Shown piece by piece: positions 22,355-48,971 of a DNA stretch of 64,000 bases. How positions within the stretch are numbered: position 1 is the stretch's first letter; every line of letters begins with the position of its first letter. The notes beneath the pieces were generated by a model that ran no database searches, was not told where the DNA came from, and saw only the letters and a program-made list of their open reading frames with translations. The position numbers and the translations under genes are program-made. The stretch lies in NCBI RefSeq assembly GCF_030519355.1, contig NZ_JAUMKC010000010.1, forward strand, positions 1 through 64,000, in the 5' to 3' direction. Source of the stretch: Mucilaginibacter sp. L3T2-6 (GTDB lineage: Bacteria; Bacteroidota; Bacteroidia; Sphingobacteriales; Sphingobacteriaceae).

Positions 22355-23006
22355 AGTAGTAGTATTTATCTGATTAATAATATTGCTAAGTTAAACGGAT
22401 TGATTTATTTATCATAGTGTCTTCAAAATTAATTCTACTGATTTGGTAGAATTTGTTTTTCCATTGACAAAAGTGACGGATGAAGATTTCAGGCTGGTCG
22501 CGTTAAATTGAAATACACGGCCAAGCTCCGTTTTGCAGATGGGCAAAATGCGTTTAGCCCGTAACGAAAATTAGCCTGAAAACGCGCAAAATGCGTTTAG
22601 CCCATAACGAAAAAAGAGGTAAAAACGGGCAAAAGCGTTTTTGCCTGTTTACAAGAACGTTCCCTGAACGGGCTAGAACCATTATGGTCGTTCGGTATAA
22701 AAACCGCCATTACGGTATCTGGAGAGGTAAAATTAACCTTATTAGCAAGGTTTTTAGTGCTTAATTAGTCGAAAATAAATGTAAAAGAACTTTTTAATAG
22801 GCGTTACTGGTGAATTTTTGGGTTGTTCGCTAAAATAAACACACAAGATACTAAGTTTGACTGGAATAAATGCTGACACGAGTTTGTCAGTAAGGGAATA
22901 GCGCAGGAAAGAGCTGATGCCATCAACCTGATCAACTCAATCTAACTGCCCTCCTCTTAAACCAAAATCCGCAAATGTTGTTACAACAATGCACAACAAC
23001 TTAATT
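22355..23006. other. Intergenic region between divergent genes
   Basis: About 650 bp with no supported gene. It holds the second copy of the dispersed repeat (22537-22704). The rest is AT-rich and featureless, except for an odd palindrome GTTGT-T-ACAAC just before the GH15 start. Confidence 0.6.
22537..22704 (-). repeat. Dispersed intergenic repeat, copy 2 (168 bp, inverted)
   Basis: The reverse complement aligns along its full length to 4223-4390, starting GTTTTTATACCGAACG and ending GCCCATCT. Internally, GGGCTAAACGCATTTTGC occurs twice, with a third diverged module CAGGCAAAAACG..TTTTGCCCG, all about 43 bp apart. It lies between the divergent peroxiredoxin and GH15 genes. Confidence 0.8.
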
Positions 23007-28026: not shown

Positions 28027-28641
28027 TTACAGGCTATATTTATAAGTGGTTTTAACACCCTCTATCTTGCTTAGTTTGGCAAGACTTTGGTTTACCTGTA
28101 TCTGCCGGATAGTAACCGTTATACTACAGTTATTATCGAAAGCTTGTTCTGCTATGTGTAGCCCGTCATCCTTTACAATTCGCATTACATCGTTCATTTG
28201 CAGGTAATCAAACGCTATAGCATACACGTCATTTACAGTTTTCTCGATAACAGTGGCTGATTTCAGGGCCTCTTCAGCAGCGGTTTTGTAGGCATTGATC
28301 AAACCGGGGACACCCAACAGCGTCCCGCCGAAATACCGGACGACAACAATAGCTATATTGGTAAGATTATGAGATAGCAAGGTATTCAGGATGGGCCTTC
28401 CCGCGGTTCCCGAAGGTTCACCATCGTCGTTCAACCGAAATACCGAACGATCAGGTGTCAGCCGCATCGCCCAGCAATGGTGATTGGCTTTTGGGTGTTC
28501 GTTTTTTAATATCGCCAGGCGGGCCTTCAGCTCAGTTTCGTTAATCACCGGAAAAGCAAAGGCCAGAAACTTACTGCCCCTGTCGCGAAATATGCTCTCA
28601 GCCGGCTTTTCGATAGTGCGGTAGGTATCGTCAAAAAGCAT
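28027..28641 (-). CDS. YigZ/IMPACT family protein
   Basis: A 204-residue protein with an N-terminal UPF0029/IMPACT domain (KFLAFAFPV, HHCWAMRL, NDDGEPSGTAGRPIL) and a C-terminal EF-G domain V-like DUF1949 region. The eukaryotic relative regulates GCN2; the bacterial role is unproven. Its ATG overlaps the stop of the EamA gene (TGATG). Confidence 0.9.
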   Translation of the reverse strand: MLFDDTYRTIEKPAESIFRDRGSKFLAFAFPVINETELKARLAILKNEHPKANHHCWAMRLTPDRSVFRLNDDGEPSGTAGRPILNTLLSHNLTNIAIVVVRYFGGTLLGVPGLINAYKTAAEEALKSATVIEKTVNDVYAIAFDYLQMNDVMRIVKDDGLHIAEQAFDNNCSITVTIRQIQVNQSLAKLSKIEGVKTTYKYSL

Positions 28642-29525
28642 CAGCGGCCAAGTATATTTGTGAATGTCTCAGGATAGTAAATAACCACAATAGCCAATAT
28701 AGCAAGTGCAAGGCCTATCTTATTGAACAATGTCAGTTTTTCTTTAAAGATGATCACCCCTACCAGCGTACCGAATATTATAACACCGATATTCATTGAT
28801 GAAAATACAATCGACGGATTTTTTGCCAGAGACTGGTGCGCCTTAATATAAAAAAGGATATTGCCGAAATTGGCTATGCCCAGCGCCCATCCGATGAAAA
28901 TATGCGGCCATGAAAAGCGCATGGTTTTAGTAAATACCTGGTAAAACAAGCCAACTAGCGCTACAGCGAAGGCCAGGGAATAAACAATAAACAGTGATGT
29001 CCCGGTTGAAATTTGCTTAACCAGGGCAACCTGCTTAAACAGCACATCGATAACCCCCATGCCGGTAAACACCACCAGGAGGTAAATCCATGAACTGTTG
29101 CCGGCCTTTTTATTGCGCTCTTTCTTTTGCCAGGGAATTAGGCAAACAACCGCGGTAATACCGATGGCCAGTCCTGTAAGCCGGACAGCATCCGGCGACT
29201 CATTGAAAAGCAGGAAAGCGGCGGCTATTGGGATGAATAATGATAATCGCTGTGCAGCGTCCGTACGCACAATCCCGGCCGATCTTACTGATGCAGCCAG
29301 TATCACAAATAATACAGGCAGCAGCAAGCCAAGCAACACAAACAGGTTGAAAGGTGCGCCGTCAAGATTTTGTAACTGCGGCTTTAGAAACAGCCAGGTA
29401 AGTACAATGGCAATAGAATAATTCCATGTTATGGCCTGGTAAACGTCGATATGGTAACGTTTGGCCAGCTTTAACATTATAGAAACAAGTACGCTGCAAC
29501 AAATGCTTAGTAAAACGTAGAGCAT
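28641..29525 (-). CDS. EamA/DMT family transporter
   Basis: A 294-residue membrane protein with 10 predicted helices in two EamA repeats. It is expected to export or import small metabolites; the substrate is not readable. ATG 29525 begins directly at the first helix (MLYVLLSICCSVLVS); a start at 29600 would translate an intergenic repeat. One-base overlap with yigZ. Confidence 0.85.
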   Translation of the reverse strand: MLYVLLSICCSVLVSIMLKLAKRYHIDVYQAITWNYSIAIVLTWLFLKPQLQNLDGAPFNLFVLLGLLLPVLFVILAASVRSAGIVRTDAAQRLSLFIPIAAAFLLFNESPDAVRLTGLAIGITAVVCLIPWQKKERNKKAGNSSWIYLLVVFTGMGVIDVLFKQVALVKQISTGTSLFIVYSLAFAVALVGLFYQVFTKTMRFSWPHIFIGWALGIANFGNILFYIKAHQSLAKNPSIVFSSMNIGVIIFGTLVGVIIFKEKLTLFNKIGLALAILAIVVIYYPETFTNILGR

Positions 29526-29530
29526 GGTTT

Positions 29531-29586
29531 GGTTGATTGGGTGACCGGTTGATTGGTGAGCGGTTAAACGGTCTCTCCACTTAACC
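29531..29586. repeat. Intergenic word-reiteration repeat
   Basis: GGTTGATTGG occurs twice 16 bp apart (29531, 29547), with a related GGTTAA at 29562 that is inverse to TTAACC at 29581. It occupies the gap between ribD and the EamA gene. Confidence 0.4.
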
Positions 29587-29596
29587 ACTAACTTAA

Positions 29597-30643
29597 TCAA
29601 CTATTCACCAAAATTTTTAATTTATCTTGCCCTGACGAATATTCGCCAATTATATGGCCTCTTATTTCAGGGGATTTTATTCCTTTTTTTAATTCTGTTT
29701 CACCGGTAAAGATACGGGCCTCGTCCCATAAACCAGCCTCAATAAAACTGTTTAATGTGTGTGCGCCGCCTTCAATAATCACCGATTGTATATCCTGAAG
29801 ATAGAGTTGAAACAAAATGTACTGGGGTACGTACCTTTCAAAATCTTCGAGGGCAATATACTTGTTTTTACCGTCAACATCCGTCTTTACCTCGTTGAAA
29901 ATAATGGTTTCAACGCTTTGATCAAAAATATTCAGCGCCGGGTTAAGTTTTAGTTTACGGTCAATCACCACCCGTTTGGGCGATTTGCCATGCGCAAGCC
30001 GCACATCTAGCAAGGGATTATCAATAGCTGCTGTGTTTTTACCAATCAAAATAGCATCTTCTTCGGTGCGCCATTGGTGTACCAGCTTTCGCGATTCCTG
30101 ACCTGTTATCCATAGCTGGCTATTATCATCGGGCGCAAAAAAATCATCCGGGGTTTGCGCCCATTTCAATATCACGTATGGCCGGTGTTTTTGTATACGC
30201 GTAAAGAAACGCCGGTTAAGCCATTGGCATTCTTTTTCCAAAACACCGGCGGTAACGTTAATGCCCGCATCTTTAAGCTTTTCAATTCCCTTGCCATCCA
30301 CCTGCGCAAACGGATCACGGCAACCGACAACCACGTTAGGAAGATGATGCCTGATAATTAAATCAGCACAGGGCGGTGTTTTGCCATAATGCGCACAGGG
30401 TTCCAGGGAAACATAAATAGTTGACTGCCTGAGTAATTCGCTGGCATTGTCAAAGCGTTCAATTACGTGGTTAATGGCATTTACTTCGGCATGTGCTTCG
30501 CCATATTTGCGATGATAGCCTTCGCCTATTATCCTATCCTGGTGCACAACCACGGCGCCCACCATCGGGTTGGGGCTAACACTGCCTGTGCCTAATTGAG
30601 CCAGCTCCAGGCAGCGCTGTATATATTTTTCATGTTGCACCAT
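29597..30643 (-). CDS. ribD: Bifunctional riboflavin biosynthesis deaminase/reductase
   Basis: A 348-residue enzyme for two steps of riboflavin synthesis. The N-terminal deaminase domain has the zinc motifs HAEVNAI and PCAHYGKTPPC. The C-terminal RibD_C reductase domain begins near residue 150 (RPYVILKWAQT). The ATG is four bases after a perfect TACTTTTG box. Divergent from prmC across 33 bp. Confidence 0.95.
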   Translation of the reverse strand: MVQHEKYIQRCLELAQLGTGSVSPNPMVGAVVVHQDRIIGEGYHRKYGEAHAEVNAINHVIERFDNASELLRQSTIYVSLEPCAHYGKTPPCADLIIRHHLPNVVVGCRDPFAQVDGKGIEKLKDAGINVTAGVLEKECQWLNRRFFTRIQKHRPYVILKWAQTPDDFFAPDDNSQLWITGQESRKLVHQWRTEEDAILIGKNTAAIDNPLLDVRLAHGKSPKRVVIDRKLKLNPALNIFDQSVETIIFNEVKTDVDGKNKYIALEDFERYVPQYILFQLYLQDIQSVIIEGGAHTLNSFIEAGLWDEARIFTGETELKKGIKSPEIRGHIIGEYSSGQDKLKILVNS

Positions 30644-30676: not shown

Positions 30677-31537
30677 ATGAAAACTATAAAGGATGTTTTT
30701 ACCGCTTACCGGCAGGAATTATCAGCAATATATGATGTAAATGAAATAAGCGCCACTACCCTTTTGGTTATCAGCGATATATGCGGCATAAGCAACGCGA
30801 AAGTCAAAGCTTTTCCGGAGCTTGAACTAACAGAAGAACAATCAGTAAAAATGGCCGCTGTTCTTACAGAACTCAAAACAGGCCGCCCGGTGCAATATAT
30901 TTTAGGTCACACGGAATTTTATGGTTTGCCGTTTAACGTAAATCCATCCGTCCTTATCCCCCGTCCGGAGACCGAAGAATTGGTAGCATGGGTGTTGGAG
31001 TCAGTGAACAGTGAGCAGTTGGCAGCGGGCAGTATTTTGGATATCGGCACAGGCAGTGGCTGTATCGCCCTCACCCTGAAGAAAAACCTGCCTCCGTTTG
31101 AGGTCCGGGCTTTGGATATTTCTGTTAACGCATTAGAAACTGCCGCATCAAATGCCCGGTTGAATAATGTTGATATACAGTTTATTAACGCCGATATATT
31201 AAACCTAAATTCCGAAATAAAAATTACGAAATCCGGAATCATAGTTAGTAATCCCCCTTATGTTACCATGCAGGATAAAACCCGCATGCACGCCAACGTG
31301 ACCGACTTTGAACCCCATACAGCCCTGTTTGTACCTGAGGATGATCCGCTGATGTTCTACCGCGCGATAGCCGATTTCGCTTTAATCAATCTGGCCGATG
31401 AAGGCCTGTTATTTTTCGAGATCAACGAAAGCCTTGGCGCAGAGACTATGGAGCTTTTACGTGATAAAGGCTTTAAAAGCATTAAGTTAAGAAAAGATAT
31501 GAGTGGCCGGGACAGGATGATAAAAGCTATGCATTAA
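30677..31537 (+). CDS. prmC: Peptide chain release factor N5-glutamine methyltransferase
   Basis: A 286-residue SAM-dependent enzyme that methylates the GGQ glutamine of release factors. The N-terminal helical domain ends near QYILGHTEFYG. ILDIGTGSGCIAL binds SAM and SNPPYV is the catalytic NPPY motif. ATG 30677 is used; an earlier start would run through the ribD promoter. Between the domains, residues of about 109-119 (SVNSEQLAAGS) are encoded by a 7-bp tandem repeat. Confidence 0.94.
   Translation: MKTIKDVFTAYRQELSAIYDVNEISATTLLVISDICGISNAKVKAFPELELTEEQSVKMAAVLTELKTGRPVQYILGHTEFYGLPFNVNPSVLIPRPETEELVAWVLESVNSEQLAAGSILDIGTGSGCIALTLKKNLPPFEVRALDISVNALETAASNARLNNVDIQFINADILNLNSEIKITKSGIIVSNPPYVTMQDKTRMHANVTDFEPHTALFVPEDDPLMFYRAIADFALINLADEGLLFFEINESLGAETMELLRDKGFKSIKLRKDMSGRDRMIKAMH
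31002..31033 (+). repeat. Heptanucleotide tandem repeat inside prmC
   Basis: Four seven-base units, CAGTGAA, CAGTGAG, CAGTTGG and CAGCGGG, are followed by CAGT. The run is in frame and encodes a loop just before the SAM-binding motif. The same words (GCAGTTGGCAG) occur in the intergenic repeat at 48928-48971. Confidence 0.6.
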
Positions 31538-48927: not shown

Positions 48928-48971
48928 AGCTGACAGTTGATAAGTGCAGTTGGCAGTTTTATCTGTCAGCT
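48928..48971. repeat. Intergenic inverted repeat with CAGTTGG words
   Basis: AGCTGACAG (48928-48936) is the exact inverse of CTGTCAGCT (48963-48971). Between them CAGTTGA, CAGTTGG and CAGTTTT recur, the same word family as the repeat inside prmC. It starts five bases after pyrE. Confidence 0.5.

Follow-up and report, generated by a model that had tools for sequence, protein, structure and literature searches.

The best-known cases of repeats lying in frame within conserved proteins of bacteria come from Rickettsia and Wolbachia. Members of Mucilaginibacter are mostly free-living soil bacteria, and here we describe arrays of degenerate seven-base words that lie in frame in core genes of this genus, starting from prmC, the gene for the release factor methyltransferase PrmC, in a 64-kb stretch of Mucilaginibacter sp. 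L3T2-6 (contig NZ_JAUMKC010000010.1, positions 1 to 64,000). This whole stretch is called the window below; its source genome measures 5.7 Mb, and its nearest named PrmC relatives are titled Mucilaginibacter. The arrays occupy variable loops amid conserved flanks and show different words in different species at one site. We give even chances to the reading that two surface loops of PrmC, hereafter loops 1 and 2, are recurrent homes of heptamer words also found between Mucilaginibacter genes, captured from or overwritten out of a genomic pool. It appears that repeats in DNA can, time after time, provide segments of conserved proteins, and the same loops with alternating words amount to many natural replicates for the study of repeat spread, of toleration versus use and of the origin of new protein segments.

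The palindromic elements of Rickettsia (RPEs) measure 105-146 bp, have long stem-loops and lie in frame in 19 reading frames, and a guanylate kinase bearing one was active with changed substrate affinity (PMC2229807). By analogy with these protein-coding palindromes, repeats that are also found between genes appear to become tolerated, in-frame parts of conserved proteins in Mucilaginibacter. Length and palindromic structure differ: the Mucilaginibacter unit is a degenerate 7-mer with many words, one loop holds different words in different species, and the window array is a single direct array of 33 bases with no palindrome rather than an element of ~105-146 bp with terminal inverted repeats, although loops of another enzyme, IspG, partly hold inverted pairs.

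Direct repeats of the heptamer TAACTGA are dispersed in Beggiatoaceae, Cyanobacteria and five Bacteroidetes, and one of the sets lies inside a putative purC in Flexibacter litoralis; the word is fixed, and in the Beggiatoaceae genome the repeats lie mostly just upstream of starts (PMC4679880). Dispersed heptamer direct repeats, and one set inside a gene, are shared with our arrays, whereas recurrent use of protein loops is not among the TAACTGA features described in the portion of that paper drawn on here. The window words are CAGTGAA, CAGTGAG, CAGTTGG and CAGCGGG rather than TAACTGA, and CAGTTGG has five bases in common with TCAGTTA, the reverse complement of TAACTGA. The majority of the heptameric G-rich repeats of Xanthomonas and Nostoc lie between genes, in many cases no more than 50 bases from where a gene ends, and 11% and 7% are intragenic in two xanthomonads (PMC4692102). 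These are likewise heptamer arrays, but of a GGGAATC type that forms quadruplexes. Heptanucleotide simple sequence repeats used for phase variation have nearly perfect 7-base units in or near genes, which they switch on and off. The Mucilaginibacter arrays are unlike these in being in frame, in core enzymes and degenerate; the period of 7 is clear over the pooled PrmC loops, with units that are degenerate. Among the open-licence PMC papers listed by our searches, there was no account of heptamer arrays in these loops or of heptamer words that alternate in fixed loops of core enzymes.

The array in loop 1 of the window

The window prmC product scored 246 bits against its NCBIfam model (curated cut-off 199.1), and LDIGTGSG and SNPPY were read directly in the translation, giving a score above the cut-off together with the NPPY and GxGxG motifs of the family. 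At 31002-31033, the four heptamers listed above follow one another in that order and end in CAGT, part of a fifth; they are in frame and encode SVNSEQLAAGS, directly before the S-adenosylmethionine (SAM) motif LDIGTGSG. The first-pass annotation had reported a heptamer array in frame at this place, and both direct reading and a codon shuffle, in which codons are permuted within each loop and the amino acids kept, bore it out (p = 0.0002, the floor of 5000 shuffles). The best stretch of the array at lag 7 had 16/21 matches. Allowing up to one mismatch, CAGTNNNCAGTNNNCAG had three overlapping matches in the window, every one in this array; shuffles gave a mean of 0.48, and three matches were reached in 1/100. 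Tandem Repeats Finder, at score 30, passed over 31001-31033 owing to the degeneracy of its units.

An AlphaFold2 model of the window PrmC (mean predicted local distance difference test, pLDDT, 90.1) places the array at the end of helix 97-112 and in the turn before strand 119-123, and this turn adjoins the SAM motif. Two solved HemK/PrmC proteins, 2b3t and 1sg9, which we take to be those of E. coli and Thermotoga, have three and two residues fewer, respectively, at the aligned loop. Loop 1 is 15 residues long in the window, and many array-free relatives have 12-15; the range of 12 to 49 in the Mucilaginibacter set, defined below, agrees with the earlier suggestion that the loop tolerates extra residues. 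In the relative with 49 residues (L098) the array region is probably disordered, because modelled residues 120-146 have pLDDT < 50.

Seven-base periodicity of PrmC loops across the genus

All 61 genus genomes had some PrmC match, and 56 were long enough for use (G005, G012, G014, G055 and G059, with no usable PrmC, were left out). Loop 1, taken as the stretch between RPETEELVxW and LDIGTGSG, was cut from 133 of 136 PrmC loci (L059, L061 and L127 were not parsed), and merging 15 named/unnamed duplicates left 118 distinct loops; L042, L124 and L129 were not parsed for loop 2. The named PrmC set comprises the best 80 of 360 and therefore leans toward near relatives. The Mucilaginibacter set was defined by locus number (L013-L068 and L075-L110, plus L117 in the tree and later analyses); a few of its genomes bear no title beyond Bacteroidetes bacterium. 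In the loop 1 codon-shuffle counts, L117 still stands among the 43 others and among their six positives.

Pooled over the 118 loops, base identity was highest for lag 7 (0.452), followed by lag 14 (0.412), and ranged over 0.236-0.321 for the remaining lags from 1 to 15; lag-7 identity in three other prmC stretches was 0.266-0.279. Codon shuffling gave p<0.01 at lag 7 in 58/118 loops with 1000 shuffles (59 with 5000), and in 1, 0, 2 and 1 loops at control lags 4, 5, 8 and 10 (1000 shuffles). Positives with 5000 shuffles made up 53/75 of the Mucilaginibacter set and 6/43 of the rest, one of these six being titled Mucilaginibacter. The three control prmC stretches, which are conserved and not independent and of which the upstream one has its own lag-14 and lag-15 peaks, reached p<0.01 in 6, 0 and 3 of 118 (p<0.05 in 25, 1 and 13). 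Only 12/1000 random interior coding 45-mers of the genus passed the same test at p<0.01. Set against the 58/118 loops, this count refutes chance, and since a lag of 7 is not a multiple of 3, repetition at the protein level is not the direct cause either. These results indicate that 31001-31033 is a real 7-base array within prmC and part of a genus-wide pattern.

A whole-gene scan led to further arrays in loop 2, before SNPPY. The window copy is decayed and CGAAATC-like (p = 0.001 by codon shuffle on lags 7 and 14; lag 7 alone gave only 13/21), and arrays are clearer in relatives, whose words include CGAAATC, CACTCAC, CCTTTCA, GAACTCA, AAATTCA and CGCAATA. Overall, 48/115 loops were positive, compared with 0, 0, 2, 1 and 0 at five control lags; the positives were 45/75 in the Mucilaginibacter set and 3/40 among the others. 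Within that set, 40/75 prmC genes were positive in both loops and 58/75 in at least one, and the two loops of one gene usually differ in word, as judged by eye. In the PrmC of G041 (L028), a palindrome, CCCGATAGCCATCGGGA, lies in frame within a CGAAATC-like loop 2 array, two repeat types being seemingly nested.

Array density was assessed with a criterion of 15/21 matches at lag 7, simple repeats excluded, in the loops and in 20 kb from each of 20 relatives. Arrays were present in 47/76 loop 1 and 29/75 loop 2 sequences and covered fractions of 0.50 and 0.285 of their bases, compared with 0.0087 of noncoding and 0.00017 of coding DNA. Noncoding cover was two to fifteen times that at control lags (0.0006-0.0042), and coding cover was not above control lags (2 arrays at lag 7, 2-6 at control lags). 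In 464 kb of the source genome (the window plus two 200-kb runs), the criterion returned 7 arrays in coding and 17 in noncoding DNA at lag 7; eight control lags gave 1-4 and 0-11, respectively. By eye, those in PrmC and PheS were taken as genuine among the seven coding arrays; three at starts of probably over-extended open reading frames (ORFs) and two chance-like ones were rejected. In the noncoding part of the 464 kb there were also 11 arrays at lag 8, against 0-5 at the other control lags, an excess that the 20 relatives do not show.

Array words, their genomes and other core genes

Words in loop 1 differ by species (CAGTTGG, AAAGTCA, GAAAGGC and others). The 82 tree rows comprised 27 of CAGT type (source genome included), 13 AAAGT, 6 AAAGG, 10 other 7-periodic and 26 with none, the AAAGT label having been added by hand for two weak arrays, L051 (p=0.016) and L066 (p=0.076). 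The PrmC tree was built without the loop; it is a quick tree with no bootstrap, and its change counts do not separate gain from loss. The five word states took 28 changes on it (shuffled mean 44.5, least possible 4). Two pairs of supported sisters had different words: L082 (CAGT) and L017/L019 (AAAGT), with a Shimodaira-Hasegawa-like approximate likelihood ratio test (SH-aLRT) value of 99, and L032 (AAAGG) and L062 (CAGT), with SH-aLRT 98. Between L082 and L017/L019 the flanks were 81-85% identical and the loop 45-51%, compared with 85% in the loop between L017 and L019, which have their word in common.

One register was common to 25/27 CAGT-type loops, and AAAGT-type loops stood in three. The array type was therefore probably inherited in the source lineage, and inheritance of a CAGT-type copy is a likelier origin of the window array than a new insertion. 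The description of the window copy as inserted, given in the first-pass annotation, was thus not upheld, its loop being of ordinary length and its array type looking inherited. L125, L133 and L141 (titled Mariniflexile, Flavobacterium and Flaviramulus) carry other 7-periodic words in loop 1, with CACCCAT units in L133; CACCCATCACCCA, the L133 word, had 5 matches at three places in its own genome, one by position probably prmC itself. L111 and L142, outside Mucilaginibacter, have G- and C-rich palindrome-like stretches in loop 1. The L142 word had 2 matches in its own genome, one probably prmC, leaving one further copy.

We compared codon identity in 20 loops picked by peptide alone, avoiding circular choice. 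Same-residue codons were alike in 963/1208 comparisons (80%) in repeat columns, whereas each flank showed 42% agreement and the three residues that open the loop 25%; the expectation from codon usage is 27%. Within the CAGT class the DNA, and not the peptide alone, is kept. The peptide is therefore not an ancestral one carried by drifting codons, as it would be had relatives shared it with unrelated codons, and the inherited-looking arrays have not drifted like silent sites of the same gene. Loop DNA is written in the heptamer vocabulary of the genome, and it supplies protein sequence, as had been proposed earlier.

The loop 1 words had also been matched to an intergenic copy in the window. 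This copy is a 9-base inverted repeat (AGCTGACAG at 48928-48936, CTGTCAGCT at 48963-48971) around CAGTTGA/CAGTTGG and is only weakly 7-periodic (12/21). The match held in that the 11-mer GCAGTTGGCAG is common to the loop 1 array and 48946-48956; this common word does not show the intergenic copy to be a donor. GCAGTTGGCAG is an enriched word, with 12 occurrences in the 5.7-Mb genome versus 1 for the backward pattern, and a single shared 11-mer in 64 kb proves little alone.

Among genus genomes, arrays were found for CAGT in 30/56 (28/54 and 2/2), for AAAGT in 25/56 and for AAAGG in 38/56. Backward controls gave 0 in every genome for CAGT (54 and 2) and AAAGG (56); for AAAGT there were six hits, spread over five of the 56 genomes. 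Surroundings were inspected for 22 places with CAGT-type arrays in four relatives and 18 with AAAGG-type arrays in the source genome; 30 of these 40 fell outside chosen ORFs of at least 60 amino acids. Several intergenic arrays begin 2 to 9 bases past a stop codon (L202 and L203, in G049 C9; L193, L195 and L198), and three of those in G049 C9 lie 8 bases past an ORF. Across 54 genomes, with own prmC hits removed, the PrmC word was positively associated by rank with its abundance elsewhere in the same genome (p = 0.0015, 1.2e-5 and 0.0017; AAAGG presence-only test, 0.09), word classes having been set by a simple rule that leaves some weak arrays, such as L052, in 'none'.

In-frame arrays also occur in the source genome in alanine-tRNA ligase (AlaRS), IspG, PheS and the ligase-associated DEXH helicase, and each of these, like PrmC, scored above an NCBIfam cut-off (TIGR00612 for IspG). 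Loops from 30 genus genomes were positive in 17/30 for PheS, 25/29 parsed for IspG (L265 not parsed) and 1/29 parsed for AlaRS (L288 not parsed), with 0-2 positives each at control lags. The sole array-bearing AlaRS loop is that of the source genome; the other 28/29 are array-free, in a loop that is variable in sequence and constant in length, which makes AlaRS an instructive contrast. IspG arrays are frequently inverted pairs, in loops of 23-52 residues (array-bearing 23-38) that share no single conserved element. Four IspG loops fail p<0.01, three of them with palindromic stretches by eye. The IspG loops L249 and L254 have a similar GGGGGAGA-bearing palindromic stretch, and L264 has a palindromic CCCGATAGCTATCGGGA, a stretch also present in PrmC loop 2 of L098. 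The DEXH helicase of the source genome (L004, C5 near 114368) carries an in-frame inverted pair of CAGT words in a stretch of ~45-50 residues. The first-pass annotation, which had suggested that the repeat family can spread into coding DNA, understated the scope: the pattern is genus-wide and involves several words, two PrmC loops and other genes.

Table 1 Features of the window discussed in the text
Feature	Position	Strand	Details
prmC, release factor N5-glutamine methyltransferase, 286 amino acids	30677..31537	+	stop codon ends 31537; NCBIfam TIGR03534
Loop 1 heptamer array	31001..31033	+	residues 109-119; direct reading and codon shuffle
Loop 2 array, decayed	31207..31240	+	AAATTCC/GAAATAA/AAATTAC/GAAATCC/GGAATC; ~residues 178-188, before SNPPY
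Intergenic inverted repeat with CAGTTGA/CAGTTGG words	48928..48971		ORF of 214 amino acids ends 22 bases before 48946

Origin and maintenance of the arrays

Under capture from a genomic pool, an array or its words would be written over a loop by non-allelic exchange or patch repair, with or without net length change; only in-frame, stop-free outcomes would survive, and later rounds would swap one word for another. A 7-base unit would favour survival, since successive units of a tandem array pass through each of the three reading frames in turn: whichever frame is read, the array encodes one 7-residue peptide up to cyclic shift, and three units together leave the frame intact. Several results weigh against this account. 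No donor-recipient pair was found, so that transfer is something we infer. In the source genome only 3/12 GCAGTTGGCAG sites lie outside ORFs of at least 60 amino acids, and the word is thus not mainly intergenic there; a further two coincide with the starts of probably over-extended ORFs, and three or more coding sites are chance-like. The link between PrmC word and genome abundance is suggestive: it reached no significance with independent pairs, and the 2 to 5 usable pairs cannot separate it from common descent. The loops are 30-60 times denser in arrays than intergenic DNA, which is unexpected for a neutral landing site, and therefore do not simply behave as neutral intergenic DNA. The shared register of the CAGT-type loops is as inheritance predicts. 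Finally, the PheS loop has 19 residues in 30/30 genomes and the AlaRS loop 23 in 29/29, arrays or not, a pattern that is unlike insertion. Relatives without arrays are present for PrmC, PheS and AlaRS, and many PrmC loops show little or no length change. The loop as a simple insertion was accordingly dropped, because its length is ordinary here and the PheS and AlaRS lengths are constant.

Those constant lengths are explained better than by pool capture if the arrays arose in place, 7-base replication misalignment copying one heptamer over the next with no length change and no transfer between sites, so that some DNA turns 7-periodic. Consistent with this, the AlaRS patch of the source genome aligns without gaps to the nearest relative, L267, and differs by a modest dip in identity (63-67% across the two windows of the patch and 73-93% across the eight surrounding ones), and many unrelated words are alike in their unit length of 7 only. 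The same few words nevertheless recur across the genus and across sites, the IspG loop holds inverted pairs and palindromic stretches of another type, and sisters differ by replacement of the entire word; we consider an in-place origin rather unlikely. Selection for a DNA or mRNA signal (protein binding, pausing between domains or structure), with the peptide incidental, explains better than pool capture both the same-residue codon identity and the density, arrays covering 50% and 28% of the loops versus 0.9% of noncoding DNA; PrmC and PheS, moreover, both function in translation. We regard it as improbable, given that words are exchanged between sisters, that the encoded peptides are chemically unlike and that both loops lack an array at p<0.01 in 17/75 prmC genes of the Mucilaginibacter set. 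Pool capture, local misalignment and selection on DNA or RNA are not mutually exclusive. A single old ancestral insertion, inherited and drifted with nothing recurrent, would fit the one register of 25/27 CAGT-type loops and the clustering of labels on the tree, but against it stand three unrelated words plus others, the three AAAGT registers and the other words of L125, L133 and L141, and drift should have brought codon identity down to flank level; we disfavour it as very improbable.

Beyond capture from a pool, we advance tentatively, at less than even chances, the possibility that certain loops of core proteins, few and always the same, are rewritten over and over with the current 7-base words of the lineage, by a process acting on DNA or by selection, at a density well above that of intergenic DNA. 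If so, the repeat system would have these loops as favoured sites or even as its reservoirs, and it would be this system, not the function of the protein, that sets the amino-acid sequence in parts of conserved enzymes. Because array density in the loops exceeds that in intergenic DNA, experiments could tell 'selfish, tolerated' arrays from 'maintained' ones.

Two further repeats were seen in the window. A 43-base unit is present 2.3 times at 22543-22640, outside ORFs over 90 amino acids, with GCAAAATGCGTTTAGCCC words. A minus-strand ORF of 319 amino acids (28641-29600) contains GGTTGATTGGGTGACC repeats at 29531-29565, among its first residues, and its true start is probably further in.
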